A model generated the notes under the pieces. That model was not told the origin of the DNA and did not search any database. It saw only the letters and a program-made list of their open reading frames with translations. A stretch of 64,000 nucleotides of DNA. Source: Lunularia cruciata (lineage: Eukaryota; Streptophyta; Marchantiopsida; Lunulariales; Lunulariaceae). The position numbers and the translations under genes are program-made. This document shows positions 14,638 through 44,908 of this stretch, one piece after another (within the stretch, counting starts at the first letter, position 1; each line of letters opens with the position of its first letter). The stretch lies in contig OX419760.1 in the NCBI GenBank assembly GCA_948567375.1, positions 806,001 to 870,000 on the forward strand, given 5' to 3'.

Positions 14638-15240
14638 TGTCGTGCGTATATACATTGCTACACAACATACATCACTGTCAACATCATACACTATAGAAGC
14701 ACAACTCACATATAAGTCATACATAGACTCTAAAGTGCCACAATAATCAGATTGCTTAACACTTTCAACTCAACTCAACTCAGATTAGTACTTGATCTGT
14801 CACTCTATAAACTGCCAACAACTGGGCACTGATTACAGTCAAGCCACACCCACTCAAGCATAGAGAATCCAAGTGACGCTCGCCGGCCTCTGTCCACCAT
14901 AGCCAAGAACTCGAAGGCTCAACATCAGAGAAGTGAGCTCTCTGGAGCTCACTTTGAAACTATACCTCCCTGGACTCGAGCTAGCACTGGAACCCTAACG
15001 GTCCCGCTGATGGCACACTCGATGGTGCGAACGGTGCAAAGTGACGGTGGGCCCCACCGTGAAGTCAGTACCCCAAACACCAAATCAGACAGTTGGAAAG
15101 TAGTCCTTGAGAAACTACTAGAATAACTCTAACTACTATCATTGGAACTCCAGTGTCCAAGCAACTAGATGCGGAACTACAAATGGCGTGACAACTATCG
15201 TGCGTATATACATTGCTACACAACATACATCGCTGTCCTT
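14638..15240 (-). repeat. 3' terminal split repeat of copy 1 (A'-B-A)
   Basis: Read on the minus strand: A' remnant (15240-15196), 2-bp spacer (15195-15194), block B (15193-14755, about 439 bp, begins TGTCACGCC), block A (14754-14638, about 117 bp, ends GCACGACA). Block B equals the 5' terminal block 23478-23031; block A equals A' in copies 2 and 3. Because the TSD sits outside A, A belongs to the element. This is not a simple LTR. Confidence 0.8.
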
Positions 15241-16190
15241 TCTTCACCGTCTGAACCACTCTCTCTGCTAAGCCATCTGCCTCAGGGTGATCTCGGGATG
15301 TAGTACGATGATCAATCAAAGCCTTCTCACACAAGACCTGAAACTCTCCCAAGAACTCTATACCCTGATCAGTCACAACCTCAGCTGGTGCACCAAAATG
15401 ACTAAGAACTTGATCCAGGAACGAGTAAGCTGTCCCTTCACTAGACTTGTCAGGAAGTGCCACCAACTCAATCCACTTGAAGAAGTGCTCCACCATCACC
15501 AAAACATACCGATGATGTCTCACAGTCAGCGGTAAAGGTCCGGCAAAGTCCAAACTCCAATGGTAACCCAATCCCATGATAGGTAATGGGTGTAACTATG
15601 GCGTAGGAGCATTGAATGATGCTCTAACTCGGTCACAAACCACACATTTGGCAACAAATTGCTATACCTCGGTCTGCATACCACGCCACTAATAATGACT
15701 CTGGAGTAAGCTATATGTACGCTTTACTCCAAAATGTCCTAGCTCCTCATGAGCATGACGGACCAACTGTGGTCTCTGTGATGGAAGTGGTACTACTCGC
15801 ACTCTACCATCCTCCCATACACGCAAAAGGTGTCTACCCTCCAATCTGAACTGTCTGGCTTGTTGAAGAACACGGTCTCTCTCCTTGGCCCCAACTGTGC
15901 CACCCACAACACCAATGCAAAGATAGTCCATCACTAAGACATCATCATGAATGTCTCGCTGAACTGTACCAATATCTTCACTCTCTGGATCTGTGACCTC
16001 AATAACTCCTCCTGTATGCGCTGAGAGAGATACCACCAAAGTCTCTGCAAAAATACACAGAAAGGCCGATGCATGCCAACCTGGCACTATCTCCTCATCT
16101 GTCTCACCATGCCAACGTGCTCCGGTCTGATCCTGCTGGCTGGGACATGGGTTTCTACTCAACCCATTTGCATCACGGTTCACCACTCCA
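15241..16190 (-). pseudogene. Integrase (DDE), truncated, copy 1
   Basis: The zinc-binding part HAHEELGHFGV...CVVCDRV (HHCC) lies at about 15735-15625. The catalytic core has Asp in SLDFAGPLP, Asp in VVTDQGIEF and Glu in HPEADGLAERVV, so the DDE triad is intact. After VQTVKKG the frame runs straight into the terminal block A', so the integrase C-terminus is deleted in this copy. Two stops lie near 15690 and 15660. A DDE integrase agrees with the 5-bp target duplication. Confidence 0.85.
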
Positions 16191-16267
16191 AGTCTGTGAT
16201 CAACCGTGAAATCACACTCCTGTAAAATCAGAGCCCATCGTGCAAGCTTCCCTGAAAGCTTGTCAGA

Positions 16268-16740
16268 CTACATCAACCACTTCAGCGGCTGATGATCAAT
16301 GATGAGAGTGAAGGGGTTACCAAATAGGTAACATCGGAAATGTGCTACTGCCCAAACTGCTGCCAAGCACTCTCCCTCATATGAACTATACTTCACCTCC
16401 GCTGAATTGTTGGAGCGACTAGTATAGGCCACCACAAACTCCTTCTCCTCATCATCATGCTGGGTGAGCACCGCTCCAAGCCTCAACATACTCCAATCAG
16501 TGTGAACCTGAAATGGTCGTCCCCTGATTGGTCTCCTCAAAATAGGAGCAGATGTCAACCTCTCCTTGAGCTCTACAAAAGCTCTCTCTTGCTCATCTCC
16601 CCAACACCACTCCTGTGTAAGCTTGGTCAGCTTCGTCAAGGCCTTGGCAATGGCACTAAATCCTCTAACATAGCGGTGATAGAAGTTCGCCAACCCAAGG
16701 AATGCTCACACTCTGCTCACATCCGTAGGCCAAGGAATAC
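16268..16740 (-). pseudogene. RNase H and RT connection, copy 1
   Basis: The 141-codon open part begins in the RT connection (ANFYHRYVRGFSAIAKAL) and runs through the RNase H fold: HTDWSMLRLGAVL, KYSSYEGECLAAVWAV (catalytic Glu) and IDHQPLKWLM. The first Asp of the usual TDAS is kept. It ends at a stop at 16268-16270. Confidence 0.85.
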
Positions 16741-17500
16741 ATGCAATAGCCTCTACCTTGGTCTGCTGGACACCAAGTCCTCCGGGGTAGATAGTGTGAC
16801 CCAAATACTCAACCTGCTCGTGGAAGAACCTACACTTCCCAGGATGTTATTTGAGTCCATGAGATCTCCACCTCTCAAACACCTCCAACAACTATCTCTC
16901 ATGCTCCTCCACAGTAGTGCTATAGACCAAAATGTCATCAATATAACACTGAGCAAAATCCAATCCAGCTAGGATCCTATCCATGACCCTATGGAACTCA
17001 GCAGGAGCGTCCTTCAACCCAAATAGTAAGAACCTCCACTGATATAACACATCCTTGTCGTGAGGATCAATAGCCCAAAATGCTATCTTGGACTTATCCT
17101 CCTCCCTGATCGGCAACTGATGATATCCCGCTTGAAGATCCAAAGTACTGAAGACCTTTGTATGCCTAATCACATCAAAAATCTCCTCCGGTGTAGGCAT
17201 GGCATACCGATCAGCCATGGTCTGTCGGTTGATAGGACGGTAATCTCCACACATCCGCCTATCTGTATAGTTGCCATGCATATCCTTCTTGGCTGGCATC
17301 ACTGTCGCTGATGCATACTCTCCATGTGAAATCTCCACCAAACCAGCCTAAAAAAGGTCACTACTCCGGCTCTGAATCAATGTCCTCTCCATATCACTAT
17401 ATTGATAAGGATGTCGGAAAACAAGTGTGTCGCTAGTCAGCTCAATCCGTATACCAAGTCCCTTCAGAGCACCCAAATCCTTCATACTGAAGGCAAAACA
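16741..17500 (-). pseudogene. Reverse transcriptase (Ty3/gypsy type), copy 1
   Basis: The long open part 17341-16892 holds CGDYRPINRQT, motif A 'FSTLDLQAGYHQLPI', motif B LLFGLKDAPAEFHRVMD and motif C YIDD at 16934-16945. All three catalytic Asp are present. This is a Metaviridae-type RT. Downstream stops lie near 16890-16700. A TAG replaces a GAG codon just before the open part (copy 2 keeps GAG). Confidence 0.9.
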
Positions 17501-17935
17501 ACTTGTGTGACTCTTCAAGAACCTCCAAACCCTCTGTCTTTCCTCTCCAGTAAGCTTGGGTCCAAGATCTGGCTCCCAAGTATCCTCTGTAACTGTAGTA
17601 GGAGTGGAGGACGTACTGACTAGCTGCTACACTGGGCCCTTGGGAGCAATAGTGTCATGCTCCCGACCACTAAAGGTCCCAACTTCTGTGTGAAAAACTC
17701 CCTCCACTCTGGCTGCAAGCTCCACACGTCCTCTGGCTGCATCCCATGTGGACCAAGGGTGTAATCCAAGTAGCCCACGCTCACCTGGATGGACTCCAAG
17801 TAGACCACTCTCCCTAGTAGCTACTAGATGTGTCCCAAGAATACCATGTCCACTCGGTCCATTGCACCCAGCATGTGCCTGAATCGTCTCGATAGGCACA
17901 GGGCTCACAAGTGTCCGAGTGGTGATGCTTATCAA
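17500..17935 (-). pseudogene. Linker between methyltransferase and RT, copy 1
   Basis: In frame with the methyltransferase and open until 17627, this roughly 140-residue linker is rich in Gly, His and Pro, with a short internal repeat (ESGLLGVHPGERGLLGLHP). It ends in 'EERQRVWRFLKSHTSCFAFSMKDLGAL', the segment that precedes RT in gypsy polyproteins. No separate enzymatic motif is visible. Confidence 0.6.
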
Positions 17936-18925
17936 GCACATTCTACGCTGCTCTGCCAAGCCAAGGCTCACAATCCAGGTCAAACAGTTCAGGTCCATAG
18001 CCTGACCTAACACTTGACGCCTGGATGCCTCTGACACTGCTAGAACAATGGTAATACCGGTGCAAAAACCCATTGCCCGCTCTCTCTCATCAACGTTGGG
18101 CTCCACCAATTGCTGTAATTGTGAGTCCCAAACAAGTCCAGGTCCTCCCTCTTGAAAAGCATGAGAGCCTGGGAAACTCATGAGTGTGGGAAATGCATCT
18201 CTAGGCTGTCCAACTAGGTTCACCACTGCCATAGGTGACCTATCAGCCACTACCACTGTTTGAGACTGATGTCCAGCATCCAAGATATCATCAACAAGAA
18301 TGTGGTCTAGTCGCTGAATCCCATCATAACTACGCTATAGAACCTCTTTGGGTAAGAGGTTCGTCCACCAAAGACAAAGACGATAAGCCCGTGATCCCAC
18401 TTTGGCTGCATCTAACAATACAGCAGGTCCCATCCATGAATGGACCTGATGTGTACTCGCCACCACTCTAGTGCAAGAATCACCCAACAAAAGAACGTTC
18501 TCCAAAAGGTAAGCTGGAGAAACAGACTGATGAACCTGGAGATGTCGTAGTATCCGTAACATCTCCCAAAACACACCAGAACGAGGATCCTAAAGACCCA
18601 AACCGTGGCCCGCACATGTATGTCCCTGACATGGCCATCCAGAAATCACCAAGTGAATAGGCCCATGTCTCTCTAGGTCATGCGCCCCCAGTAAAGAAAT
18701 GTCTCCTGGTAAGGCCTTCTGGTAACCTTTGACTGCTGACATCGGTAATAACTCCGAATACCAATAAGCCAAGTGTGCCACATGATGTAGAGAGACTCGC
18801 CTAGCAATCTCATCTCTCTCTACATACAAGTACCTCTGTACTTGTATACCCGCCTGTAACACCGCAGCTAGTCCGGTGCTGATCCCACCAAACAACTCCA
18901 ATAGACATATCCCCTCTATTGGATA
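17936..18925 (-). pseudogene. C5 cytosine DNA methyltransferase (DNMT3-like) within the retroelement, copy 1
   Basis: One minus-strand frame of about 330 codons carries the ordered C5-methyltransferase motifs: I, LLELFGGISTG (SAM binding, near 18890); II, YLYVERDE; IV, SGWPCQGHT with catalytic Cys at 18629-18631; VI, ENV at 18494-18502; VIII, KVGSRAYRLCLWW (near 18390); C-terminal ERERAMGF and LGQAMDLNCLTW. The run 'GIQVQRY' after motif I and the motif VIII block resemble DNMT3 more than DNMT1 or CMT. Known C5 enzymes attack cytosine through that Cys and methylate DNA. Two TAG stops interrupt it: 18590-18592 (copy 2 has CAG) and 18335-18337 (also TAG in copy 2). It is in the pol frame, between protease and RT, so it was made as part of the polyprotein. 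Confidence 0.9.
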
Positions 18926-19370
18926 CTGCCAAGCAATGAGTGTGGTATCCAGAGGTGTCAAAGCAATTGCCTCTGGAGGCTCATCCTTACACTCATTCCC
19001 TGATGGTACGAAGGCTCCACTCCAAGCCTACTGCACCAACTGATCTGCATGCTGCTACAATGCCTCCTCTGAACTCCACAATGGAACATCCAAGATGGAT
19101 GGAACAATCCCACTCATACTCCAAAGCCGAGTGATCTCCTCTGGTACTGGAGTATACTCTGCATGGGTGTTCCCCTCCAACAAGTCACCAGGCCAAGTAA
19201 CCGCACCGCTGAAAGCCAAAACTGATGCTACCATGGTCCCGGATTGTAGTGAGCCAAGACTGCCACTACTGAAGCGTACTGGTAGGCGACATACCCGTCC
19301 CTCACCAGACTGCCAACCAGGTCTATAAGAGGTTGTCTCCTCCCAATAGTCAATGCTGAAACCCATAGGG
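18926..19370 (-). pseudogene. Region between protease and methyltransferase, copy 1
   Basis: An open frame (19441-19055) follows the protease: 'AVTWPGDLLEGNTHAEYTPVPEE' (first 20 residues) and then 'LWSMSGIVPSILDVPLW'. I recognise no domain. The segment is absent from copy 2, where a deletion of about 0.65 kb joins protease directly to methyltransferase motif I. Confidence 0.5.
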
Positions 19371-19640
19371 TATAACACTGCTCCCCCAACTAGCACATCA
19401 TATGACTCAGCTATCATCGCAATAGCCTGAGCTCTCACCACCGAGCTATCAATCGGATGACCAGGCTGAACCTGGACAACAAGCTCTCCACGTGTGATGT
19501 ACTGTGTCGAACCACCACCAAGAGATGTCTAGATCTGAAATGGACACCTCTCCACATCGGTCTTCCGTAACTCCAGACCGACAACTACAGCCTTCTCCAA
19601 CATAAGGGGCTGTGCACCAGAGTCTAAGAAGACTCTCTAT
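19371..19640 (-). pseudogene. Aspartic protease, copy 1
   Basis: The active site reads VFLDSGAQPLML, with DSGA at 19613-19624, followed by 'YDVLVGGAVLYPMGFSIDYW', the second conserved strand (LVGG in place of the usual LLG). A TAG at about 19636 precedes it; the same codon is CAA (Gln) in copy 2, where the frame from gag into protease is open. Confidence 0.8.
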
Positions 19641-20890
19641 GGTGTATAGACCTTCCTTGAAGGTCCCACCAAATGAAAGATCCCCCTCTGGTTATCCAAT
19701 AGGACAACACCAGGTGTAAACCGCACTCTCTCAAAGGCCGGTCTAGCTGGCAACTCCTCCAGTCTAGCCGTTGCTGCCTGCCATAAACCATTGGTCGCTG
19801 AACGGATCCCATGCTCCTCAACCAAGTCAGATCCACTACCAACCACCTCTGCTCTAGTAGTAGGAACTGCACCATCCCTACTCTCACACAACGTGGCAGC
19901 CAACCGGAATACTGGGGCTGGGTCAACTCCCAATGTAAACATGTCATTGGCTGAAAATAAAGGATGCCGCATAATCAGCTGAGCCGCCCCCAACATCATG
20001 CTAGACTCAGTCTGTGTAGTAGCAGGTGGCTGACTAGCAGGTACTCCATCACCACCTACCACACCTGCACTGGGACGTCTAGGAACCATGGATGTCGTCT
20101 GTAATGCCTCAGATAGCGTGAAAGACTGGGGAAGTCTGACCTGTCTCCCAACCTCTCCTCTCTGTGGGTCCAACTCCACTGATGCTCCTCTAGGCTCTGG
20201 AGCATGTACTGCACTCCTAGTCACTGCTACAGATGCATCCACCTGTGCTGCTCCGCACATGAATTCCAAAGCATCTCTATCACCAGCATATGAGGTGGAA
20301 GCCTCAACACCCAAATCTGATCTCCTCTGAGCAATAGCCATACTAGCCAATCTTTGCTCCAACTGCTCAATCCGAGTAGCCATAGCTGTGTCAGAAGTAA
20401 GGGCAGGTACTGCACCCCTACTAGGTGTAGATCCTCTACCACCACTTCTACCACCTCGTCCTCCATGAACTGGAGCTCCTCTACTACCTGCCATAGCAGC
20501 CCTACCACTCCGTAACTCCGGGTGTAGGTCAAAACACCGGTCACTAGTGTGACCAAATCTGTGGCAGTGCTCACACTGCCTCTGTCTAACTCCACTAAGC
20601 CCTCCACTCGCTCCATAGGATCTGGGCTGTCCACCCTATCCTTGAAAACCAACTGGGCATGGTGCACTCTACTGCACTCTAGAAGAAGTCACAACCGTGG
20701 ATGAGGTCTCTCTACCAAATCCAGCTGTCACCACTCTCTCCTCCACCATGTTGAGCTCAATACGCTCAGCCAAACCAAAGACTACTGCCAAAGTGGGCGA
20801 AGTAGCCTACAACAACGTAGCATCACGAACTCTACGTCGCAACTCTCTGTCCAGTATCCCATACCAAAACTGGACTGCTTGGGCCTCAAT
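19641..20890 (-). pseudogene. gag: Gag C-terminal half with zinc knuckle, copy 1
   Basis: After the stop at 20897 the gag frame continues with 'ILDRELRRRVRDATLL', 'FGLAERIELNMVEERVV', then a CCHC knuckle CEHCHRFGHTSDRC (about 20565-20530), then a long open stretch 20494-19637 rich in Arg, Gly and Ser that leads into protease. Copy 2 has an additional knuckle upstream (CWTCGGPYHRTEC) that is deleted here. The knuckle binds the element RNA. Confidence 0.8.
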
Positions 20891-20896
20891 AACTCC

Positions 20897-21712
20897 CTAA
20901 GTGAAACTGATCAGCCGCCTCATGCGAGTATATGCCTTGCGTAGGCTCTTTCCAGCTTTCCGCTGGAACTCCTGCAAGCTCCTCAGCTTGTCAGTCCGCA
21001 CTCCCTGGTAGTTCTGCCTCAAACATAGGAAGAACTCAACCATGGGGTTAAACCCCGGTACCACACCACCTCCTGCAGCGGTACCTCCACTTGTAGTAGC
21101 ACTATCTCCAGCTAGTGCACCTCCACTAGCTCCACCAACACTACTTGAGCTAGAACTCGTGGGTATAGCCGATCTACTCATGGCCACCGAGCCTGAAGTA
21201 ATGGAGACGTAGTGTGGAGACCAATACTGTCTCCATAACTCAATCTCCTCCAAATAAGCTCTCCTGAACTCATGGTAGTCATCCATCGGCGGACCCTCCA
21301 GATGCTCGAACAACCCCTTCAATGCCATGAAGGGTGTGAACAAAGTCGGGTGCCGCATCTGCTGCAGATCACACCAACTATCAAACTCCTGGATGAAGTC
21401 ATCCAACTCAATGGTACTCACTGTACCAGAGTAACGCCTAGGGCCTTTGGAGGCCCCATAAATCTTGTCCATGTCACACAACAACGGTGCGGACACACCA
21501 AGTGCACTCTCAACTGAATCAGCTCCTGTGTCGAACTCCAACTCAGAGTCAATCTCCTCCCTCACTGGGACCTGAGATACAGGCTGATATCGAGCACCAC
21601 TTTGAGTAAACCCACTGTGTACTGCAAGGCTAACTCCTTTGGAATCTCCAAAAAACTCCGTCGTGACAAAGTAACCACACCAACAAACCCGAACCACCAA
21701 CTGCAACCGCAA
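20897..21712 (-). pseudogene. gag: Gag N-terminal half (capsid), copy 1
   Basis: A 271-codon frame ends at the TAG at 20897-20899 (shared with copy 2). The conserved block starts around MDKIYGASKGPRRYSGTV, followed by IELDDFIQEFDSWCD, a Ser/Gly-rich insert, and then 'LRQNYQGVRTDKLRSLQEFQ' and 'LRKAYTRMRRLISFT', the pattern of retrotransposon capsid helices. The true start codon is uncertain: several Met are possible and upstream residues differ between copies. Confidence 0.75.
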
Positions 21713-21799
21713 GTCGCAACCGCAAGTACCCTACCAACTGCCAACACCACCGCGTGCCAACACCAACTAAACACCACCCACTAATGTAACTCTAACCGA

Positions 21800-23030
21800 G
21801 ATAACTACACTAGGGGAAAGGGCAACCTGTAACCTGCCATCATAACATGCACTCTCACGGTCTGCAGGTCATCACTTCCTGCCTCACCGGAGAGAAACAA
21901 AGGTAGTCTGACTGGTCATCACTCCAGCCTCACCACCGAGAGCACACCAGAGCACCAACGCTCAAAAGTCAAGGCACCTCACACAAACGTGGTGCACAAA
22001 TAGGAAGCAGAGAATGGAGGGGATCCAATCACAAGAAATCTAAACGAAAACCCTCCATCTCATAACACAACACGGGACTGACTCTGCCACCATTTGGCAT
22101 TTGACATAAGAGCAGTTCGTATCTAAGTCCTAAGCTACCAGGATCACCAAGAATGGAATCAAACTGCCTCCTAGCCAAAGCTACATGTGTATAGATAACA
22201 GTGGCGCAGTCACTAGGACAACAAGTGAGGGTGGACCAGTTGGCTAGGGCACCAATCTAGGAACAAGAGATTTAGGGGTCAAACCCTGTTGCGCACAATC
22301 TAGCAAGAAAGGCAGATTTTGCCAACCAATGACCAAGATCTACTCTAAACTAGCTAGCCTCACACCAGCAAGCTGGCTTGCTAGCCCTTCTGGCCCTTCT
22401 AGGCCTTCGTAGCCTCTCATAGCCCACAGCCCTATGCCTTGAAGCCTTGAAATGCCAAAATTCAGCCAAATGAGGCCTTTCTTGTTACCACTTCAAAACC
22501 TCCTCCAAAATTGGTGAAACTTCTCCAAATCTGCAAAAGTCCTCCAAACTAGCAAAACTCCTCCAAATCTGGCCAAACAGTGAAAACTCCTCCAAATCTG
22601 GCCCAAAATCTGACGTAAAATCTGACGTAAACCCTAAAGATGGCTGTCCGCCAAATCCCCCGCTAACTTTCTACTCGAGCCAAATTGACAAAACGGGTTT
22701 TTCCAAATCACAATTTCATGAGAAGAGCTTCCAAACTCCACCTTCAATTTCACTTTCTGAGCACAACTTGTAGCAAATTGGTCCTGCCTTCACCTCCTGA
22801 GCTCAAAATCACAACACTGCTCAAAAATTGCTCCTTCTTTGCTCGAAATTTGGCCAGCGCTTCTGCACACCGTCCGCCTAACTGCCAAATTTGAATCACT
22901 TGAACGAGCTTCTGCACACTAGGGAAACACAGAACTTGAATCAAGCTACCACGATCCACCGAGCTTGGAGATACCACCAACACTCAACGTTCCTGCACCC
23001 GATTTCCCTCTGACTTCACTTCTTTGATGT
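21800..23030 (-). other. 5' leader of copy 1
   Basis: This untranslated leader of about 1.2 kb lies between the terminal block and gag and is conserved with copy 2 (43410-44457). It contains a run of related 'tccaaat/tccaaac' units at 22500-22620 and, at about 22080-22097 on the minus strand, GTGGCAGAGTCAGTCCCG, which vaguely resembles a tRNA primer site but is about 900 bp from the repeat. No ordinary primer site adjoins the repeat. Confidence 0.55.
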
Positions 23031-23478
23031 AATCAGATTGCTTAACACTTTCAACTCAACTCAACTCAGATCATTACTTGATCTGTCACTCTATAAACTG
23101 CCAACAACTAGGCACTGATTACAATCAAGTCACACCCACTCAAGCATAGAGAATCCAGGTGATGCTCGCCGGTCTCTGTCCACCATAGCCAGGAACTCAA
23201 AGGCTCAACATCAGAGAAGTGAGCTCTCTCGAGCTCACTTCGAAACTATACCCCCTGGACTCGAGCTAGCACTGGAACCCTAACGGTCCCACTGACGGCA
23301 CACTCGACGGTGCGAATGGTGCAAAGTGACGGTGGGCCCCACCGTGAAGTCAGTACCCCTAACACCAAATCAGACTGTTGGAAAGTAGTCCTTGAGAAAC
23401 TACTAGAATAACTCTAACTACTATCATTGGAACTCCAGTGTCCAAGCAACTAGATGTGGAACTACAAATGGCGTGACA
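23031..23478 (-). repeat. 5' terminal block B of copy 1
   Basis: This 448-bp block begins TGTCACGCCATTTGTAG at 23478 on the minus strand and ends CAATCTGATT near 23031, where the leader starts. It matches 15193-14755. Block A does not follow it, unlike at the 3' end. Confidence 0.9.
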
Positions 23479-23483
23479 TTATT

Positions 23484-28024: not shown

Positions 28025-28028
28025 GTCT

Positions 28029-28671: not shown

Positions 28672-28860
28672 TGCCACCCTAGGTGGCGGTAAGGTCCCTC
28701 TTACTCCAGATAGCCATCTACTCTAAGTATATGGTATACCCTCTAATGGGCAAAATGGGAGTTTGTGGTATACCCTCTATCACACACTAACATAGTAGTA
28801 GCCAGAAGAGCCACATAACATACACCTCAAACCTGCACGTACAAGTGCCAAGCTTGGGTC
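28672..28860 (-). other. 3' untranslated segment of copy 2
   Basis: Non-coding sequence between integrase and A', matching 61491-61850 of copy 3 in part (for example 'gtacaagtgccaagcttggg'). It is cut by the nested element at 28860/28861. Confidence 0.7.
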
Positions 28861-31213: not shown

Positions 31214-31276
31214 CTGCCTACTAGCATAAGCTATTGGATGATCATGCCCATCTTGGTCTAATTGACTAAGAGTGCA

Positions 31277-32749: not shown

Positions 32750-32755
32750 GAGATT

Positions 32756-33330: not shown

Positions 33331-33339
33331 CTTCTTCTC

Positions 33340-34374: not shown

Positions 34375-34651
34375 ATCTTATCCATCCTTGCTAAAGAAAA
34401 CCGAAAGTTTCCCCATCTTAACCCCTCACTATCTTTCTTTTCTCTCAATTTTTTTTTTCTCTTTTCTTTTCTCTCACTCTATTACTAATAGAGTATATAC
34501 ATGACTAACACCATCTGAGAATAATCCACTCTAGGGAACACAAAAGGTTCAGGTTGCTCCAAGATTTCTATAGCAACATCAAATCCTAGAGTGCATATTA
34601 ATCTAACTCTCATGGATAGTTTATCCGTAAGTTGAAAGATTATCTCCATCA

Positions 34652-35010
34652 CTAATCTTGAGAACTAGCTGATGAAGGTGGTAGTATTTCTGTAGTTGTA
34701 CTAAGGCTCTCTCCAAGATCCTTCACCAAAGTCTCCAAAAGTGCTTTTACTCCACTACACTCATGTCCTTTTGGAAGTCCTTCCACTCCACAAATCTCAC
34801 ATAACTCCTTGGTCTTAGATCTTCTCCCTCCTAATCTTGGTGAAGAAGGTCCAACATGCAAACCCCAGTCAAGTAAGCCTCTCCTTTCCCTCAATATCTT
34901 GCTTTCAAATTTCAATGGACATGAACTTGCCTTATGTCACTTCTCTCCACATAGAAAGCACTTAGACTCACTCTTTCCTCCAAGTGGTGTAGGTTTTTGA
35001 ATCCTCTCAA
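34652..35010 (-). pseudogene. Extra zinc-knuckle frame upstream of gag in nested element
   Basis: Between the leader and gag, the minus strand encodes CFLCGEK(stop)HKASSC, a C-x2-C-x4-H-x4-C knuckle with one in-knuckle stop. It continues in the same frame into an 87-codon open part with LCEICGVEGLPKGHEC, a second Cys/His cluster. It is separate from the gag knuckle. It may be an N-terminal part of a longer gag or a separate accessory ORF; I do not know its role. Confidence 0.5.
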
Positions 35011-35985
35011 CACTCTCTTCAAATTCTCTTGTATTTATTTATATATTCAAATTGTAAACTCTCTTTTCCTCAAATCCACCCCTAAAATCACCTCAAACCC
35101 TTGGGGAACCTTGCATAATCTCAATTTCCACTCTTGATGACCCTCCATGTTCCCAAGATGAATCTAAACACTCAAACATGCTTTTTGTTGATCTCAAACT
35201 CCTCATGCATGAGATCTCCACTTTGCAGAATTGACCCTTCCTCACAATGTCACTCAAATCTCCCAATCACTATGTCACAGTCCTCTGAAATTTTTCACAT
35301 TTGATCACAACTCTAGGGCGTCCCTCCCTGCAAAATTTCAGATCTTTTCATCGAGCCATTTGGCCTAGACACCTTTCTATTCAGCACCCATATTTCAGAT
35401 TTGGTCTGAAAACCACCCCCTTCACTTAAAAAACTCATTACTCCCTGCACAAGAACGATCTCTCTCCATTTTTTGTGGCAGAAGGTAGGATACAATGCAC
35501 TGAATTTTCTTAAAAATTGTCAGGACAATTCACTAAAAATTGAAGAAATGGCAGACTCTGTACAATTTTCCAGAGAGCATGCAGTTGCGGGAGCACTTTA
35601 CCCTATCAACTTTCAAAACTTCTAGCCCAATGCGCATAGAAGCTCTCACAATAATTTCAAGTGTGCTAACTGAAAGATAACCTAAGCTATCATGTGTAGA
35701 AATCTTAAATCCAGATCTCAAACTTGAGATTTTGCCCAAAATCACCTGAATCCCCAAAATCTGCAATCCACCTCACACAATCTCTCCAGTTCCTCTCATG
35801 TGTACAAGTTGTACAAAATCACCTCAAAGACATCATAATGAACTATAGGGTAAACAAATGGATCTTGGTTCTCTAACATAAGTTCAGCACTCTACTCTCC
35901 TAATGTTCTCTCCAAGTGAGCTCTCATAGCCTCCTTCTGCCTAATGTAAAATTGAACGCGGAACATTATCTTGCCTTCTAGAGAG
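35011..35985 (-). other. 5' leader of nested element
   Basis: About 1 kb between the primer site and the zinc-knuckle frame. Short minus-strand frames (35766-35533, 35495-35313) show no motif. Confidence 0.6.
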
Positions 35986-36003
35986 GTCCCGACAACGGAA
36001 TCA
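35986..36003 (-). other. Primer binding site, tRNA-Glu type, nested element
   Basis: Four bases after the 5' LTR end, the minus strand reads TGATTCCGTTGTCGGGAC. It matches the complement of the 3' end of plant tRNA-Glu at 16 of 18 positions, as I recall that tRNA. It fits worse to tRNA-Asp. Confidence 0.6.
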
Positions 36004-36007
36004 AAAA

Positions 36008-36694
36008 TGTGAGCCGGCCTGTCTCTCACTCAGGATGAACCTCTGGTGGCTATTATGGTAGCGCACCATGGACTAAGAAGGCAAGGAACCCGAACTCCAT
36101 CATACTCCTCCAAGGCTAACACTCCAAGACTCAAGACATTGCTCACTAGAGAACTCAATGAGAGAGATAGTTGCAAATGAAAGGATGATGAGTACCTCCT
36201 CACCCCTTGTTTATATACTTGTGAAAGAGTTACGTACCAAAGTTACTAATTACCGTAGTAACTCAAGTTACTAGACTAAAAGTCAAGTAAAGTCAAAAGT
36301 AGAAAGGAATATCCATTCACATGAGCATATTCCCCTAAGCATGTGGTCTTATCTTGACCCAACCACTAAGTCAAGGATTCCTTCACATGGGCTATCCTTG
36401 GACTAAAGAAGAATCCAAAACAAAAAGGCTTGCGGGCCCAAGAGTTCTCAACTCTTTCCTCAAAGCCAAACACCTAGGAATAATACCAAGTCAACACACT
36501 AAAATCCAAAATAGTGGTGCTCATCTTTTCTACTTCCTCTAAAGTAAAGTCCCCTCTATCTTAGCTATGACTAAATTTAGATAACCATGACTAATATAGA
36601 ACCATCCTTCATCTCTATAAATAATATCTCTTAAGTACTTGTAATACCAAGTTAAATATCACAATACCACACACATGCACAAATGGGTGTTATA
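36008..36694 (-). repeat. 5' LTR of nested gypsy element
   Basis: A 687-bp LTR near-identical to 28861-29547. On the minus strand TATATAAA at 36217-36210 is a good TATA box. The element's start reads TATAAC where the partner has TGTAAC, a single G-to-A change in the terminal dinucleotide. Confidence 0.95.
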
Positions 36695-38220
36695 GGTCCA
36701 TAGTACCATCATTGTTTGGGAGGTGGCATGGCGCACAATTGTGCACATGATCCTTCCAAACAACACCATCACGTCTTTCTAACACAAGGACTCTAGATGG
36801 CAAATCCTCACGCACTCTCAAGATAGTGCGGCCTGTCAAAACATCAAGTGTCATTGGTGCTATCTGTTGTAGATATACATAGTCTCCTAGATGAAATTGA
36901 CGGATTGAGGGTCCATAACCTCCTCCTTGAATGGTAGCATAGCGTAAAGTATCTCTATGCTGAGCAATTGTCAAGTTCTCAAAGGCCATTGGCATCACTC
37001 TCCGAAAGATCTCTGCTCGTTGAGAACATGCGCTCATCCATACATCGGGGTCATCCAAGTCCAAAACTACAATAGCATCTCAAGAAATGGCTGCAAGTAA
37101 ATCTGGATCTTGTCCATAGAGTAGAAAGTATGGAGAGAAGGATGCTAAGGAGGCTTGCCGGCTGAACCGATAGCCCATGGCCAACCAAGGTAATTGGAGA
37201 TCCCAATCTCCCAAGTGGCCTCTCTGCAAACCATACTTTTGTAATCCTCTCTTCACCATCTGAACCACTCTCTCTGCTAGGCCATCTGCCTTAGGGTGAT
37301 CTCGGGATGTAGTATGATGATCAATCAAAGCCTTGTCACACAAGACTTGAAACTCCCCCAAGAACTCTATACCCTGATCTGTCAAAACCTCAGCTGGTGC
37401 ACCAAACTAACTAAGAACTTGATCCAAGAATGAGTACTGTCCCTTCACTAGACTTGTTAGGAAGTGCCACCAACTCAATCCACTTAGAGAAGTGCTCTAC
37501 CATCACCAAAACATACTGATGATGTCTCACAATCAGCAGTAAAGGTCCGGCAAAGTCCAAAATCCAACGGTAACCCAATCCCATGATAGGTAATGGGTGT
37601 AATTGTGGCATAAGAGCATTGAATGATGCTCTAACTCGGTCACAAACCACACATATGGCAACAAATTGCTGTACCTTGGTTTGCATACCGTGCCACCAAT
37701 AATGACTCTGGAGTAAGCTATATGTACACTTTACTCCAAAATATCCTAGCTCATGAGCATGGATATTTTGGAGTTTAGGATATCATGGCTCCTCATGAGC
37801 ATGATGGACCAATTGTGGTCTCTGAGATGGAAGTGGTTCTACTCGTACTCTACCATCCTCCCATACACACAAAAGGTGTCTACCCTCCAATCTGAACCGT
37901 CTGGCTTGCTGAAGAACACGGTCTCTCTCCTTGGCCCCAACTATTCCACCCACAACACCAGTGCAAAGGTAGTCTATCACTAAGAAATCATCATGAATGT
38001 CTTGTTGAACTGTACCAATATCTTCACTCTCTGGATCTGTGACCTCAATAACTCCTCCTGTATGCGCTGAGAGAGATACCACCAAGCCTCTGCAAATATA
38101 TACAGAAAGGCCAATGCATGCCAACCTGGCACCATCTCCTCATCTGTCTCACCATGCCAACGTGCTCCGATCTGATCCTGCTGGCTGGGACATGGGTTTC
38201 TTCTCAACCCACGTTGAGTA
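36690..38220 (-). pseudogene. Integrase, copy 2
   Basis: The N-terminal part (38207-37783) reaches the zinc-binding HHCC near 37640; the core (37686-37080) has Asp in ILDFAGPLL, Asp in MTDQGIEF and Glu in LAERVV. The C-terminal part, 37064-36690, is lost from copy 1. It includes 'IRQFHLGDYVYLQQ' (GPY/F-like strand), GRTILRVREDLPSRVLVL and a conserved end 'NCAPCHLPNNDGTMD', also present in copy 3. No chromodomain is visible. A small inverted duplication at about 37741-37790 disrupts the frame. Confidence 0.85.
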
Positions 38221-38224
38221 GAAA

Positions 38225-38332
38225 TGGGTTGAGCAGGGTGATTTCATGGTTGTTCATAGACTTGGAGTGGTGAATTGTTGTTCATCTACGGTTCACCACT
38301 CTAGGTCTATGAACAACCGTGAAATCATACTC
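38225..38332. repeat. Fold-back inverted duplication in copy 2
   Basis: Arms of 36 bp (38239-38274 and 38292-38327) are complementary at 33 of 36 positions around a 17-bp loop. Copy 1 has only one arm, at about 16190-16225, so about 70 bp here is an inverted copy of adjacent sequence, probably from template switching. Confidence 0.85.
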
Positions 38333-38870
38333 TTGTAAAATCAGAGCACATTGTGCAAGCTTCCCTAAAAGCTTGTCGGACTCCATCAACCACTTCAGTG
38401 GCTGATGGTCAGTGATGAGAGTGAAGGGATTACCAAATAGGTAACATTGGAAATGTGCTACTGCCCAAACAACTGCCAAGCACTCTCCCTCATATGAACT
38501 ATACTTTGCCTCCGCTGAATTGTTGGAGCAACTAGTATAGGCCACCACAAACTCCTTCTCCTCATCATCATGCTGGGTGAGCACCGCTCCAAGCCCCAAC
38601 ATACTCCAATCAGTATGAACATGAAATGGTCATCCCCTGATCGGTCTCCTCAAAATAGGAGCAGATGTCAACCTCTCATTGAGCTCTACAAAAGCTTTCT
38701 CTTGCTCATCTTTCCAATACCACTCTTGTGTAAGCTTGGTCAGCTTCGTCAAGGCCTTGGCAATGGCACTAAATCCTCTAACATAGCGGCAATAGAAGTT
38801 TACCAACCCAAGGAATGCTCCTACTCTGCTCACATCCATAGGCCAAGGAATACGTGCAATAGCCTCCACC
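38282..38870 (-). pseudogene. RNase H and RT connection, copy 2
   Basis: Frames 38869-38630 (VNFYCRYVRGFSAIAKAL) and 38602-38282 (LGAVLTQHDDEEKEF, SSYEGECLAVVWAV, ITDHQPLKWLM) are separated by a stop. The domain matches that of copy 1. Confidence 0.85.
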
Positions 38871-38879
38871 TTGGTCTAT

Positions 38880-39730
38880 TGAACACCAAGTCCTACGGGA
38901 TAGATAGAGTGACCTAAATACCGAACCTACTTGTGGAAGAACCTACACTTCCCGGGATGTAATTTGAGTCCATGAGACCTCAACCTCTCAAACACCTCCA
39001 ACAACTGTCTCTCATGCTCCTCCACAGTAGTGCTATAAACCAAAATGTCATCAATATAGCACCGAGTAAAATCCAATCCAGCTAGGATCCTATCCATGAC
39101 CCTCTGAAACTCAGCAAGAGCGTTCTTTAATCCAAATGGTAAGAATTTCCACTAATATAACACATCCTTGCCGTGAGGATCAATAGCCCAAAATTTTGTC
39201 TTGGACTTATCCTCCTCCCTGATCAGCAACTGATGATATCCCGCTCAAAGGTCCAAAGTACTGAAGATCTTTGCATGCCCAATCGCATCAAAAATCTCCT
39301 CCGGTGTAGGCATGGCATACCGATCAGCCTTGGTTTATTGGTTGATAGAACAGTAATCTCCACACATCCGCCTATCTGTATAGTTGCCATACATATCCTT
39401 CTTGGCTGGCATCACTGTTGCTGATGCATACTCTCCATGTGAAATCTCCACCAAACCAGCCTCAAAAAGGTCACTACTCCGGCTCTAAATCAATGTCCTC
39501 TCCATATCACTATATCAATAAGGATGCCAAAAAATTGGTGTGTTGCTAGTTAGCTCAATCCGTATACCAGGTCCCTTTAGAGCACCTAAATCCTTCATAC
39601 TAAAGGCAAAACAACTTGTGTGACTCTTCAAGAACCTCCAAACCCTCTGTCTTTCCTCTCCAATAAGCTTGGGTCCAAGATTTGGCTCCCAAGTATCCTC
39701 TGTAACTGTAGTAGGAGTGGAAGACATCTG
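38880..39730 (-). pseudogene. Reverse transcriptase, copy 2
   Basis: Collinear with copy 1 (16741-17500) but more damaged: the frame is broken at several points between 39500 and 38900. The equivalents of motifs A to C can be followed by alignment to copy 1. Upstream, 39727-39515 is open across the pre-RT segment ('VWRFLKSHTSCFAFSMKDLG'). Confidence 0.75.
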
Positions 39731-40029
39731 ACTGGCTGCTACACTGGGCCCTTGGGAGCAATAGTGTCATGCTCCCGACCACTAGAGGTCCCAACCTTTG
39801 TGTGAAAAACTCTCTCCACTCTAGCTGCAAGCTCTACACGTCCTCTAGCTGCATCCTATGTGGACCAAGGATGTAATCCAAGTAGCCCACGCTCACCTGG
39901 ATGGACTCCAAGTAGACCACTCTCCCTAGTAGCTACTGGATGTGTCCCAAGAATTCCATGTCCACTTGGTCCATTGTGCCCAACATGTGCATGAATTGTC
40001 TCGATAGGCACATGGCTCACAAGTGTCTA

Positions 40030-41015
40030 AGTGGTGATGCCTATCAAGTGCATCCTACGCTGTTCTGCCAAGCCAAGGCTCATAATCCAAGTCAAACAGT
40101 TCAGGTCCATAGCTTGACCTAACACATGACGCCTGGATGCCTTTGACACTGCTAGAATAGTGGTAATACCGGTGCAAAAACCCATCGCCCGCTCTCTCTC
40201 ATCAGTGTTAGGCTCCACAAACTGCTGTAACTGTGAGTCCCAAACAAGTCCAGGTCCTCCTTCTCAAAAAGCATGAAACCTGGGAAACTCATGAGTGTGG
40301 GAAATGTAGCTCAAAGCTGTCCAACTAGGTTCACCATTGCCATAGGTGACCTATCAGCCACTACCACTATTTGAGACTGATGCCCAATATCCAAGATATC
40401 ATCAACAAGGATGTGGTCAAATTGCTGAATCCCAACATAAGCGCACTATAGAACCTCTTTGGGTAAGAGGCTCGTCCACCAAAGACAAAGACAATGAGCC
40501 CATGATCCCACTCTGGTTGCATCTAACAATACAATAGGTCCCATCCAAGAATGGACCTGATGTGTACTCGCCACCACTCTAGTGCAAGAATCACCAATCA
40601 AAGGAACATTCTCCAAAAAGTAAGTTGGAGAAATAGACTGATGAACCTAGAGATGTCGTAGTATCCATAACATCTCCCAAAACACACAAGAACAAGGATC
40701 CTGAAGACCCAATCCTCTACCAGCACGTGTATGTCCCTGACATGGCCATCTAGAAATCACCAAGTGAATAGGCCCATGTCTCTCTAGGTCATGCGCCCCC
40801 AGTAAAGAAATGTTTGTTGGGCCTTCTGGTAACCTCTAACTATTGACATTGATAATAACTCTGGATATCGATAGGCCAAGTGTGCTACATGATGTAGAGA
40901 GACTCGCCTAGCAGTCTCATCTCTCTCTACATACAAGTGCCTCTGTACTTGTATACCCGCCTGTAACACCACAGCTAGTCTGGTGTTAATCCCACCAAAC
41001 AAGTCCAATAGACAT
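40030..41015 (-). pseudogene. C5 cytosine DNA methyltransferase (DNMT3-like), copy 2
   Basis: Motif I reads MDLFGGINTRLAVVLQAG, close to the classical DLFxGxG; IV reads SRWPCQGHTRAG with the catalytic Cys kept; VI is FLENV; the C-terminal LGQAMDLNCLTW is present. At the stop codon of copy 1 (18590) this copy has CAG, giving RGLGLQDP. Further stops and a frameshift lie after motif I, and the TAG after KEVL (40446-40448) is shared with copy 1. Retained Cys and Glu in both copies indicate the family spread with an active enzyme. Confidence 0.88.
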
Positions 41016-41022
41016 ATCCCCT

Positions 41023-41997
41023 CTACTGGATACTGCCAAGCAATGAGTGTGGTATCCGAGTCTCCAAATTATAAATTGCAGCCTTCCCCAACATAAGGAG
41101 CTGCGCACCAGAGTCTAACAAGACTCTTTGTGGTGTATAGACCTTCCTTGAAGGTCCTACCAAACAAAAAATCCCCCTTTGGTTATCCAATAAGACAACA
41201 CCAAGTGTAAACCGCGCTCTCTCAAAGGCTGGTCTAGCTGGCAACTCCTCCAGTCTAGCCGCTGTTGCTTGCCATAAACCATTGGTCGTTGAACGGATCC
41301 CATGCTCCTCAACCAAGTTAGCTCCACTACCAACCACCTCTGCTCTAGTAGTAGGAACCGCACCATCCCTACTCTCACATAGTGTGGCAGCCAACCGGAA
41401 TACTAGGGCTGGGTCAACTCCCAATGTAAATATATCATTGGCCAAAAACAAAGGATGTCGCATAATCAGTTGAGCCACCCCCAACATCATGCTAGACTCA
41501 GTTTGTGTAGTAGCTGGTGGTTGAGTAGTAGGTAGTCCATCATGTACTCCATCACCACCTACCACACCTGCAATAGGACGTCTAAGAACCATGGATGTCA
41601 TTTGCAATGCCTCAGATAGCGTGAAAGACTGAGGAAGTTTGACCTGTCTCCTAACCTCTCCTCTTTGTGGGTCCAACTCCATTGATGCTCCTCTAGGCTC
41701 TGGAGCACGTACTGCACTCCTAGTCACTGCTGCAGATGCATCCACTTGTGTTGCTCCGTACATGAAGTCCAAAGCATCTTTATCACTAGCATATGAGATG
41801 GAAGCCTTAGCACCCGAATCTGATCTCCTCTGAGCAATAGCTATACTAGCCAATCTCTGCTCCAATTGCTCAATCCAAGTAGCCATAGTTGTGTCAGAAG
41901 TAAGGGCAGGAACTGCACCCCTACTAGGTGTAGATCTTCTACCACCACCTCTACCACCTTGACCTCCATGAACTGGAGCTCCTCTACTACCTGCCAT
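41023..41997 (-). pseudogene. Gag C-terminus and protease, copy 2
   Basis: A 324-codon frame runs from the Arg/Gly-rich gag tail into the protease active site VLLDSGAQLLMLG. There the frame jumps, through a deletion of about 0.65 kb, into sequence just upstream of methyltransferase motif I. The unbroken gag-to-protease frame shows that the two were one polyprotein in the parent element. Confidence 0.85.
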
Positions 41998-42039
41998 AGC
42001 AGCCCGACCACTCCGTAACTCCGGGTGTAGGTCAAAACA

Positions 42040-43400
42040 CCGGTCACTAGTGTGACCAAATTTATGGCAATGCTCTCATTGCCTCTGTGCTGGCTGTGAT
42101 GCACCCGAGGTATCAGGTCCACTACCCTAAGTACACTCTGTCCGATGGTAAGGTCCACCACAAGTCCAACAAGCAACACCGCCACTCACTGGCTGCTACT
42201 GACCCAAAAATGAGAGTAAGGGTCTAACTCCACTAGGCCCTCCACTTGCTCCATAGGATCTAGGCTGTCCACCCTATCCTCAAAAACCAATTGGGTGTGG
42301 TGTACTGTGCTGCACTCTAGAAGAAGTCATAGCCGTGGATGAGGTCTCCCTACCAAATCCAGATGTCACCACTCTCTCCTCCACCATGTTGAGCTCAATA
42401 CGCTCAGCCAAACCAAAGACCACTGCCAAAGTAGGCAAAGTAGCTTGTAACAATGTAGCACCATGAACTCTACGTTGCAACTCCTTGTCTAGTATCCTGT
42501 ACCGAAACTGGACTGCCTGGGCCTCAGTAACTCCCTAAGTGAAACTGATCAGCCACCGCATGCAAGTGTATGCCATGCATAGGCTCTCTCCAGTCTTCCG
42601 CTGGAACTCCTGCAAGCTCCTCAGCTTATCAGTCCGCACTCCCTGGTAGTTCTACCTCAAACACAAGAAGAACTCCACCATGGGATTAAACTCCGATACC
42701 ACATCACCTCCTACAGCGGTACCTCCACTTGTAGTAGCACTATCTCCAAATACTGCACCTCCACTAGCTCCACCAACACTACTCGAGCTAGAACTTGTAG
42801 GTATAGCCAATCTACTCCTGGCCACCAAACCTGAAATGATAGAAACATAGTTTGGAGACCAATAATGTCTCCATAACTTGATCTCCTGAACTCATGGTAG
42901 TCGTCCATCGGTAGACCCTCCAGATGCTGAAACAACTCCTTCCATGCCATGAAGGGTGTGAACAAAGTTGGGTTCTGCATCTGCTGCAGATCACACCAAC
43001 TATCAAACTCCTGGATGAAGTCATCCAACTCAATGGTACTCACTGTACCAGAGTAATGCCTAGGGCCTTTGGAGGCTCCATAAATCTTGTCCATGTCCTA
43101 CAACAATGGTGCGGACACACCAAGTGCACTCTCAACTAAATCAGCTCCTGTGTTGAACTCCAACTTAGAGTCAATCTCCTCCCTCACTGGGACTTGAGAT
43201 ACAAGCTGATACCAAGCACCACTCCGAGAAAACCCACTGTATCTTGTAGGGCTAACTCCTTTGCAATCTCCAAAGAACTTCGTAGTGACAAAGTAACCAC
43301 AACAGCAAACCCAAACCACCAACTGCAACTGCAAGTCGCAACTGTAAGTTGCAACCGCAAGTGCCAACACCACCACGTGCCAATACCAACTAAGCACCAC
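42040..43400 (-). pseudogene. gag: Gag (capsid and zinc knuckles), copy 2
   Basis: Capsid frames are 43400-43098 and 43094-42711, followed by 42480-42280. Two zinc knuckles follow: CWTCGGPYHRTEC (about 42172-42134) and a second whose first Cys is mutated to TGA (EHCHKFGHTSDRC, about 42080-42045). The TAG stop after LISFT is shared with copy 1 (42535-42537 here). Confidence 0.75.
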
Positions 43401-44460
43401 CCACTAATGTAACTCTAACCAAGATGACTACACTAGGGGAAAGTGCAACCTGTAATCTGCCATCATAACACGCACTCTCACGGTTTGCAGGTCATCACTT
43501 CTTGCCTCACCGGAGAGAAACAAAGGTAGTCTGATTGGTCATCACTCCAGCCTCACTGCCAAGAGCACACCAGAGCACCAATGCTCAAAAGTCAAGGCAC
43601 CTCACACAAATGTCATGCACAAACAAGAAGCAAAGAATGGAGGGGGTCCAATCACAAGAAATCTAAACAAAAACACTCCATCTCATAACACAACACGGGA
43701 CTGACTCTGCCACTTTTTGGCATTTGACATAAGAGAAGTTTGTATCTAAGTCCTAAGCTACCAGGATCACCAAGAATAGGATCAAACTGCCTCTCCTAGC
43801 CAAAGCTACATATGTATAGATAACAGTGGCACAATCACTAGGACAACAAGTGAGGGTGGACTAGTTGGCTAGGGCACCAGTTTAGGAACAAGAGATCTAG
43901 GGGTCAAACCTTATTGTGCACAATCTAGCAGGAAAGGCAGATTTTGCCAACCAATGACCAAGATCTACTCTAAACTAGCTAGCCTCACGCCAACAAGCTG
44001 GCTTGCTGGCCTTTGTAGCTTCTCATAGCCCTATGCCTCAAAATGCCAAAATTCAGCCAAATGAGGCCTTTCTTCTTGCCACTTCGAACCTCCTCCAAAA
44101 TTGGCAAAACTTCTCCAAACTTAGAAAAGTCCTCCAAACTAGCAAAAGTCCTCCAAATCTGGCCAAAATCTTCAATTTGACTTTCTGAGCCCAACTTGCA
44201 GCAAATTGGACTTGCCTTCACCTCCTGAGCTCAAAATCACAACCACTACTCAAAATTTGCTCCTTCTTTGCTCAAAATTTGGCCAGTGCATCCGTACACC
44301 GTTTGCCTTACTGCCAAATCTGCATCAATTGAATGAGCTTTTGCACACTAGGGAAACACTGAACTTGAATCGAGCTACCAATGATCCACCAAGCTTGGAG
44401 ATACCACTAACACTCAAAGTTCTTGCACCCAATTTCCCCCTGACTTCACTTCTCTGATGT
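43401..44460 (-). other. 5' leader of copy 2
   Basis: Collinear with the leader of copy 1, about 150 bp shorter through a deletion in the 'tccaaat' repeat zone near 44170. No gene. Confidence 0.6.
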
Positions 44461-44908
44461 AATCAGATTGCTTGCCACTCTCAACTCAACTCAACTTAGA
44501 TCAGTACTTGATCTATCGTTCTATAAACTTCCAACAACTAGGCACTGATTACAATCAAGCCACACCCACTCAAGCATAGAGAATCCAAGTGATGTTTGTC
44601 GGCCTTTATCCACCATAGCCAAGAACTTGAAGGCTCAACATTAGAGAAGTGAGCTCTCTGGAGCTCACTTTGAAATTGTACCCTCTAGACTCGAGCTAGC
44701 TCTGAAACCCTAACGGTCTTGCTGATGGCACACTTGATGGTGCAAATGGTGCAAAGTGACAGTGGGCCCTACCGTGAAGTCAGTACCCCAAACAAAAAAT
44801 CTGACCGTCAAAAAGAAGTCTCTAAGAAACTACTAAAATAACTCTAACTACTATCATTTGAACTCCAAAGTCCAAGCATCTAGATGCGGCACTACAAATG
44901 GCATGACA
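44461..44908 (-). repeat. 5' terminal block B of copy 2
   Basis: 448 bp, beginning TGTCATGCCATTTGTAG at 44908 on the minus strand. It matches 28562-28119 and is followed directly by the leader, with no block A. Confidence 0.9.

Follow-up and report, generated by a model that had tools for sequence, protein, structure and literature searches.

The window analysed here, a stretch of 64,000 nucleotides from the Lunularia cruciata assembly GCA_948567375.1 (contig OX419760.1, positions 806,001 to 870,000, forward strand), harbours one retrotransposon in three copies, each located on the minus strand. These are probably dead copies of an abundant Ty3/gypsy element that comprises gag, protease, a DNMT3-type DNA methyltransferase (DNMT), reverse transcriptase (RT), RNase H, a DDE integrase and a PHD finger, enclosed by split repeats in the arrangement A-coding-B-A-B. 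Copy A (14638-23478) and copy B (28029-44908) showed an identity of 91.3% over 6702 aligned bases. Over about 1630 bases, copy C (57877 to past 64000) was about 83% identical to either of them. An earlier sequence-only reading of the window had placed a DNMT in the pol frame of two copies, between protease and RT. This was borne out, both domains being located on the minus strand among domains in the stated order. The nested gypsy at 28861-36694, the end of copy B at 28029, copy C, the split repeats and the PHD finger go beyond that reading.

Copy A comprises a single reading frame from gag (21712) to the integrase, with 19 in-frame stops (17 of them TAG) and no frame change. The gag part (20400-21712) is an open frame with the CCHC-like CEHCHRFGHTSDRC, and relatives are named CCHC-type; a Pfam scan of gag and of the gag-side open reading frames (ORFs) gave no match. 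It is followed by the aspartic protease region (19250-19640), recognised by the motif LDSGAQ in the same frame, and by the DNMT (17900-18961), which contains two internal stops. Downstream of the DNMT, Pfam detected in order RVT_1 (16892-17341, 2.4e-16), RNase H (16268-16693, 3.2e-33), the H2C2 zinc region of the integrase (15689-16186, 1.2e-6) and the integrase core rve (15236-15577, 4.4e-12, in the ORF 15065-15577); the C-terminal part of the integrase and the PHD finger are deleted from this copy. The pol order of protease, RT, RNase H and integrase, together with a DDE integrase, is that of Ty3/gypsy elements. The 5' repeat A1 (23030-23478), starting with TGTCACG, was matched by blastn to repeat A2 (14744-15193) with 95.6% over 450 bases. 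A remnant of repeat B1 is left at 15198-15237 (97.5% identical to 14640-14679), and repeat B2 (14638-14744) ends with GCACGACA. The copy is flanked by the target duplication ATAA at 23479-23482 on the 5' side and at 14634-14637 on the other.

With X at the two stops, the translated DNMT of copy A (18961-17900) reached 30.5 bits against Pfam PF00145 (curated cut-off 22), so that the hidden Markov model check suggested for the frame at 17936-18925 was positive. The best relatives in the PDB were DNMT3A and DNMT3B (2.4e-10). A profile of 29 relatives matched DNMT3A with 2.5e-19 and DNMT3B with 5.3e-18, compared to 4e-10 for plant DRM, 3.6e-6 for HaeIII and 4.7e-6 for HhaI. The predicted structure of the relative P0001, with a mean predicted local distance difference test score (pLDDT) of 74, a predicted template modelling score (pTM) of 0.80 and a weak part at 262-304, gave a DNMT3-family match over the domain in all 50 best rows of the comparison with known structures (best E 9.8e-17, target-normalised TM up to 0.79). 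Chance similarity of the frame was ruled out by its relatives, P0001 being the best (8.4e-162). Altogether, these comparisons place the element enzyme nearest to DNMT3, and not to DRM or the bacterial enzymes, and the frame points to an intronless DNMT3-type domain within the pol ORF.

The motifs had been described as canonical in both window copies. This holds for their order, which is not DRM-like, and for the catalytic Cys and Glu, which are retained in copy A and copy B; it does not hold for motif VIII of copy A, which is damaged and reads AYRLC, compared to AHRPR or similar in most relatives. Among the related proteins with a residue at the site, 184 of 188 have the Cys and 191 of 206 the Glu. 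Neither window copy is able to make the enzyme, copy A having two DNMT stops and the damaged motif VIII and copy B being frame-broken. Elsewhere in the genome, a stop-free DNMT was found in the sampled copy L022 and a nearly whole one in L018.

Copy B is older than copy A, because its A repeats are 84.8% identical (95.6% in copy A), its DNMT is spread over three frames and it carries a nested gypsy. Its repeat A1 (44460-44908) starts with TGTCATG and is flanked by AGAC at 44909-44912. The fragments of its DNMT (40030-41015) share 82-89% identity with copy A, and the stretch from protease to DNMT lacks about 0.6 kb. The frame-broken region from RT to integrase (37245-40030) was assigned by blastn to copy A and, at its end, by translation, which also identified the C-terminal part of the integrase as far as the beginning of the PHD finger (36695-37245, matching copy C) and the PHD remnant LRCMLCGSSG (28790-28860). 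The young Ty3/gypsy between these two parts (28861-36694), likewise on the minus strand, has long terminal repeats (LTRs) with 99.6% identity over 685 bases and GGTC on both sides. Repeat B1 (28565-28671) is 96.3% identical to 14638-14744, repeat A2 lies at 28118-28562, and repeat B2 (28029-28118) is shortened inside and ends with CACAACA, as read by eye, next to AGAC at 28025-28028. In copy C, the region from RT to integrase (61849-64000) is cut by the window edge and is 78.8-82.8% identical to copies A and B; remnants of its DNMT lie past the edge (stretch L047). A decayed PHD finger (CMLCG ... CPRC, 61680-61819) was read from the translation, its relatives matching PF00628, and blastn located repeat B1 at 61381-61489 and repeats A2 and B2 at 57877-58340. 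Between repeats B1 and A2 of this old copy, an array of tandem repeats of about 90 bp extends over 58671-60885.

The family is abundant in the host genome, whose assembly comprises 566 Mb in 74 contigs; the eight contigs with matches have 60-85 Mb each and sum up to 558 Mb. A PF00145 profile search gave 2161 first-look candidates, of which 123 were scored. All 123 were matches, so that the genome-wide search for copies yielded at least 123 methylase matches. Most of them fall at about positions 48-120 of the profile, the same stretch as in the sampled element copies, and many show open frames over several hundred residues. Rows 9-29 of the scored table were taken in order, with about 10 kb fetched round each, and two rows were omitted (C1:65788863 and C6:13140246, the latter of which proved DRM-like), which resulted in 19 genomic copies, all sampled through their DNMT. 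In this sample, DNMT, RT, RNase H, integrase and PHD finger were each present in 19 of 19 copies and the protease in 18. The order of the domains was the same and their spacing nearly so, and the domains were often broken by stops or frame shifts. Thirteen complete copies measured 9.70-9.96 kb. The genome also contains two apparently multi-exonic host genes of the DNMT3 type (L029, L032) and two DRM-like host genes (L030, L031), located elsewhere. Along with the relatives of the element, these genes agree with a bryophyte host.

The ends of the element combine features of two retrotransposon classes. Repeat A has about 449 bp and starts with TGTCACG, and repeat B has about 107 bp and ends with the same sequence as in copy A. 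The two identical full LTRs of a gypsy element were not found, the 5' end carrying A only and the 3' end B-A-B. The split direct repeats A-coding-B-A-B correspond to those of DIRS elements: the 3' B-A-B was present in 18 of the 19 sampled copies (L018 lacks B2, and in L012 B2 is in two pieces), and A1 could be aligned to A2 within the stretch in 15; L012, L017, L020 and L027 have no A1 there, and their 5' end was not judged. No Pfam match to a tyrosine recombinase was obtained among the 17 proteins scanned; an rve integrase was found instead. When TG and CA were taken as the termini, 12 of the 14 sampled copies in which both ends are present had exact target duplications of 4 bp (ACTT, GGAG, TCTT, TCCT, AATG, CCTA, AATA, AACA, TGGT, AATC, CCTT and AGGG); including copy A (ATAA) and copy B (AGAC), this amounts to 14 of 16. 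DIRS-class elements are not known to have a target duplication, and in this respect the element departs from them. TG...CA ends with a 4-bp duplication are the signature of a DDE integrase, despite the DIRS-like repeats. The element is therefore gypsy by its proteins and its insertion, and not by its repeats.

The junction of B1 and A2 reads CA-NN-TG, NN being mostly GC in copies undecayed there, and thus both element ends lie nearly back to back within B1-A2. In L019, the least diverged copy (one difference in 425 between A1 and A2), the five bases that normally follow A1 (CATCA) sit between A2 and B2, as if synthesis had overrun A1 before a template switch; this single case is suggestive only.

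Relatives were collected in protein searches that gave 362, 41 and 91 matches at their thresholds, the best 120 of the 362 and all of the 41 and 91 being listed. Among the matches listed, members of the family occur in Marchantia polymorpha, M. paleacea, Riccia sorocarpa, Calypogeia fissa and Sphagnum, and more distant ones in Closterium and many metagenomes. In total, 239 proteins, including P0121 of the window itself, were fetched and scanned with own domain profiles. Both DNMT and RT were detected in 74, the DNMT lying before RT as in the window in 26 and after RNase H in 48; in 37 of these 48, integrase and PHD finger follow. According to a protease profile built from relatives, the protease precedes the DNMT in 54 of the 54 proteins with both. 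A PHD finger closes the integrase side of many relatives (Pfam 2.1e-9 in P0142 and 1e-11 in P0143). P0174-P0238 include Gypsy polyproteins whose DNMT lies between RNase H and the integrase, often with PHD; PF01585 also occurs in P0185 and P0231, and the chromodomain PF00385 in P0219. P0028, a retro-DNMT of the family on a 2.4-kb contig, is filed under a bacterial metagenome-assembled genome (Candidatus Obscuribacterales), which is probably eukaryotic contamination.

A DNMT tree was calculated with 33 rows, i.e. 28 retrotransposon DNMTs, two host DNMT3, two host DRM and human DNMT3A; host MET1 and CMT lay outside the tree, and P0185 was left out for lack of a recognisable motif IV. A branch with a support of 100/100 separates all 28 retrotransposon rows from host DNMT3, host DRM and human DNMT3A. 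One group of 19 rows (99/99) unites the DNMT-before-RT rows with proteins in which the position of the DNMT with respect to RT was not seen, and the window DNMT belongs to a group of six (100/99), together with those of Marchantia, Calypogeia and Sphagnum. A phylogeny, as proposed in the sequence-only reading, yielded a single clade, and the choice of its nearest neighbour among the DNMT3 rows has a branch support of only 80/54. An earlier tree comprised 62 proteins and the DNMT3A segment, omitted 12 of the 74 proteins, those with short domains, and contained long branches. It nests the order RNase H-DNMT in the order protease-DNMT-RT (support 73), whereas the 33-row tree, with other outgroups and sampling, shows the reverse; in either tree a single change between the two orders is needed. 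The identities of DNMT and RT co-vary over the 62 proteins (1891 pairs, Mantel r 0.78, reached by 0 of 999 permutations, Spearman 0.59), as expected if both domains travelled together. These trees are to be read with the sampling in mind, all retrotransposon rows having been found with retro-DNMT queries and the host DNMT sampling being small.

The decay of the copies is dominated by C-to-T changes at CG and CHG sites (H being A, C or T). Comparison of A1 with A2 within 15 copies gave 158 transitions and 24 transversions, and C-to-T type changes amounted to 68 of 501 CG, 58 of 729 CHG and 32 of 1865 CHH sites, corresponding to odds ratios to CHH of 9.0 for CG and 5.0 for CHG. Between copies A and B, the respective values were 35.6%, 21.8% and 8.8%. 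Because of this pattern, the copies evidently lie in DNA that carries methylation at CG and CHG in plant style. This also explains the TAG-rich frame: among 115 in-frame stop alleles of the sampled copies, 79 were CAG to TAG, 21 CGA to TGA and 9 TGG to TAG. The idea that the element might disguise itself by its own methyltransferase is not supported, the copies carrying the CG and CHG deamination signature. For the LTR pair of another gypsy-like element of the window (5820-11461), the changes were 2 of 12 CG, 3 of 9 CHG and 17 of 160 CHH sites, which are too few to compare.

In order to examine selection, differences among the sampled copies were divided into private ones (one copy) and shared ones (at least two of the 19 copies), with CG/CHG-type transitions excluded in the main test. 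Private differences would mostly have arisen after insertion, and shared ones would represent the replicating lineage together with recurrent hits. The ratio of nonsynonymous to synonymous differences (N:S) of the DNMT was 5:13 for shared and 52:22 for private differences (19 copies, Fisher p 0.0012). RT and RNase H together showed 3:10 and 60:25 (19 copies, p 0.0015), the protease 3:8 and 20:6 (17 copies, p 0.007) and gag 13:20 and 80:44 (16 copies, p 0.008). Both wrong-frame controls gave no contrast between shared and private differences for DNMT and for RT with RNase H (p 0.33 to 0.96). With all changes kept, the contrast persisted for the DNMT (34:33 and 94:39, p 0.005), gag (p 0.0002) and RNase H (p 0.002). 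Since the shared differences are mostly synonymous and the private ones are not, this is a sign of purifying selection on the DNMT, which appears constrained at least as clearly as RT. The ratio dN/dS of nonsynonymous to synonymous substitution rates for copies A and B was set aside because most of their divergence is decay after insertion.

A tentative history, slightly less than evenly probable, would be a single ancient capture of a DNMT3 by a PHD-bearing Gypsy lineage before the split of charophytes and bryophytes, giving rise to a group widespread in streptophytes and beyond. The domain would have moved once between the positions protease-DNMT-RT and RNase H-DNMT-integrase and would be kept by selection, and the DDE integrase together with the split repeats would imply that the ends are formed by a non-standard route. 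Its position within pol, between protease and RT, suggests that the DNMT would be packaged in the particle with RT and integrase. The leading idea, held with about even confidence, is that it methylates the element's own new DNA, namely the double-stranded copy before or at integration, as was proposed in 2018 for the DIRS elements of dinoflagellates (PMC5890265). The element might profit through protection of its DNA, through early silencing that does less harm to the host, or through targeting. In line with gypsy and PHD biology, the PHD finger of the integrase could read histone tails and help to choose the chromatin, and B1-A2 could supply the end sequences during reverse transcription. 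DNMT3 domains of SymbioDIRS methylate CG in yeast (PMC5890265).

Several results weigh against this picture. The integrase, with N:S of 6:3 for shared and 28:12 for private differences (19 copies, p 0.57), shows no purifying sign; this counters a simple reading of the selection data, and small numbers may be involved. When no changes were excluded, significance was not reached by RT on its own (p 0.10), the protease (0.08), the integrase (0.53) or the PHD finger (0.45), the counts being small. Family members without a DNMT would escape a sample drawn through this domain, and two of the 14 sampled complete copies, L013 and L019, have no target duplication. Judging by the decay of the copies as methylated DNA, any benefit to the element does not lie in an escape from methylation. 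Finally, the closest known relative, KnitGypsy-Dnmt3, showed no activity in yeast, an outcome described by its authors as inconclusive (PMC5890265).

This lack of activity would also agree with a DNMT domain that no longer methylates DNA and instead has a structural or RNA-binding role in the particle or acts on RNA. Such a role appears improbable, given that most of the divergent relatives retain the catalytic residues and that the domain is under apparent purifying selection. Less improbable, yet still rather unlikely, is a function in self-restraint or targeting, by which DNMT and integrase PHD finger would mark new insertions for immediate silencing or for heterochromatin, with less harm to the host and a high copy number as a consequence. 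The abundance of the family (at least 123 scored matches of the 2161 candidates), the PHD finger in all 19 sampled copies and the CG and CHG decay are in accordance with it, and a similar idea is found in the discussion of de Mendoza 2018 (PMC5890265). The decay, however, requires no element-encoded enzyme, and the control gypsy at 5820-11461 also shows C-to-T changes, too few to compare; no DNMT was noticed in this control, and no scan aimed at one was made. Host MET1 and CMT would give decay at CG and CHG.

Three further readings were rejected, namely late insertion, fusion with a host gene and recoding of TAG. That the DNMT had been inserted late into a few copies, or is a chance fusion with a host gene, seems extremely doubtful: no support was found in the sample drawn through the DNMT, where the domain lies at the same place in 19 of 19 copies. 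Moreover, Marchantia and Closterium proteins show the same order, relatives found in other species carry the domain, and the host genes of the DNMT3 type lie elsewhere and are apparently multi-exonic. Equally hard to maintain is a reading of TAG as glutamine. The share of TAG among the stops of copy A and of CAG to TAG among the stop alleles would fit it, but it does not account for the CGA to TGA and TGG to TAG alleles, for the CHG bias in A repeats outside the frame (8.0% CHG, 1.7% CHH) or for the stop-free DNMT in L022 and the nearly whole one in L018.

Apart from the DNMT-bearing family, the window contains the gypsy-like element at 5820-11461 (plus strand), with LTRs of 91.8% identity and RT/RNase H-like ORFs recognised by eye, and a diverged repeat pair (75-79%) at 45987-47686 and 55246-57681, both members of which lie on the same strand as each other. 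An ORF of 165 amino acids at 4434-4931 (minus strand) shows a Cys/His pattern and no Pfam match, and the stretch 4226-4697, which partly overlaps it, recurs inverted at 1864-2313.

In comparison with known systems, the element is a land-plant representative of the type described as KnitGypsy-Dnmt3, which is known from the charophyte Klebsormidium nitens (PMC5890265). Both have an LTR Gypsy pol with an intronless, non-rearranged DNMT3 in the Pol ORF and a DIRS-type repeat arrangement with Gypsy-type domains (according to a figure legend in PMC5890265). They also share evidence that the DNMT is under purifying selection, with Ka/Ks below 0.2 in PMC5890265, and evidence of methylation on their copies, which in KnitGypsy-Dnmt3 is CHG and CHH methylation. 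They differ in the host lineage, here a bryophyte, in the PHD finger that follows the integrase (the main text of PMC5890265 does not contain the term PHD), and in the 4-bp target duplications measured in the Lunularia element. The copy number is probably higher here, K. nitens having fewer copies than Symbiodinium (PMC5890265). No protein named Klebsormidium was among the matches listed from the protein searches; Closterium, another charophyte, falls into the same DNMT clade as the window element. SymbioDIRS-Dnmt3 of Symbiodinium shares the DNMT3 in Pol, the split repeats A-coding-B-A-B and the coexistence of two domain orders, but has a tyrosine recombinase instead of a DDE integrase and belongs to a separate retrotransposon class (PMC5890265).

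Closer to the window element are the predicted proteins of Marchantia, Riccia, Calypogeia and Sphagnum (P0122, P0124, P0063, P0126, P0132 and others), which show the order protease-DNMT-RT where enough is present and, among the matches listed, 48-73% identity to the window copy. They support an extension to land plants of the layout reported by de Mendoza and colleagues in 2018. Unlike the window element, they are fragmentary predictions with general names, and no description of them as retrotransposon DNMTs was found in the literature searched. The 48 proteins with the order RT-RNase H-DNMT (metagenomic, EukProt and unnamed records) have the same RT, RNase H, integrase and PHD finger and, where tested, a DNMT of the same clade; they differ in the position of the DNMT after RNase H instead of before RT, mostly followed by integrase and PHD finger. 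In its accessible text, PMC12344493 mentions some DNMT3 embedded in retrotransposons (LTR Copia, DIRS) of streptophytes and dinoflagellates, as reported in 2018, without the word bryophyte. As far as accessible, PMC6453930 and PMC8566409 concern host DNMT3, and PMC9033089 contains nothing relevant. The titles and abstract openings listed from the open literature searched gave no report of DNMT retrotransposons in bryophytes or of a PHD-bearing DNMT Gypsy.

Within this literature, the new points are the occurrence in land plants, the abundance, the PHD finger, the measured target duplications of 4 bp, the single DNMT clade with two domain orders, and the evidence for decay and selection from one genome. 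Since relatives occur in the laboratory plant Marchantia, the question why a retrotransposon carries a methyltransferase becomes directly testable, and how the ends are formed is a separate testable question, posed by DIRS-like repeats that occur in one element with a DDE integrase and target duplications of 4 bp. Retrotransposons carrying the type of enzyme that is used to silence them were published before for dinoflagellates and one charophyte alga; the same kind is now found to be abundant in a plant genome, with relatives in liverworts and mosses and with an enzyme that is apparently selected for.

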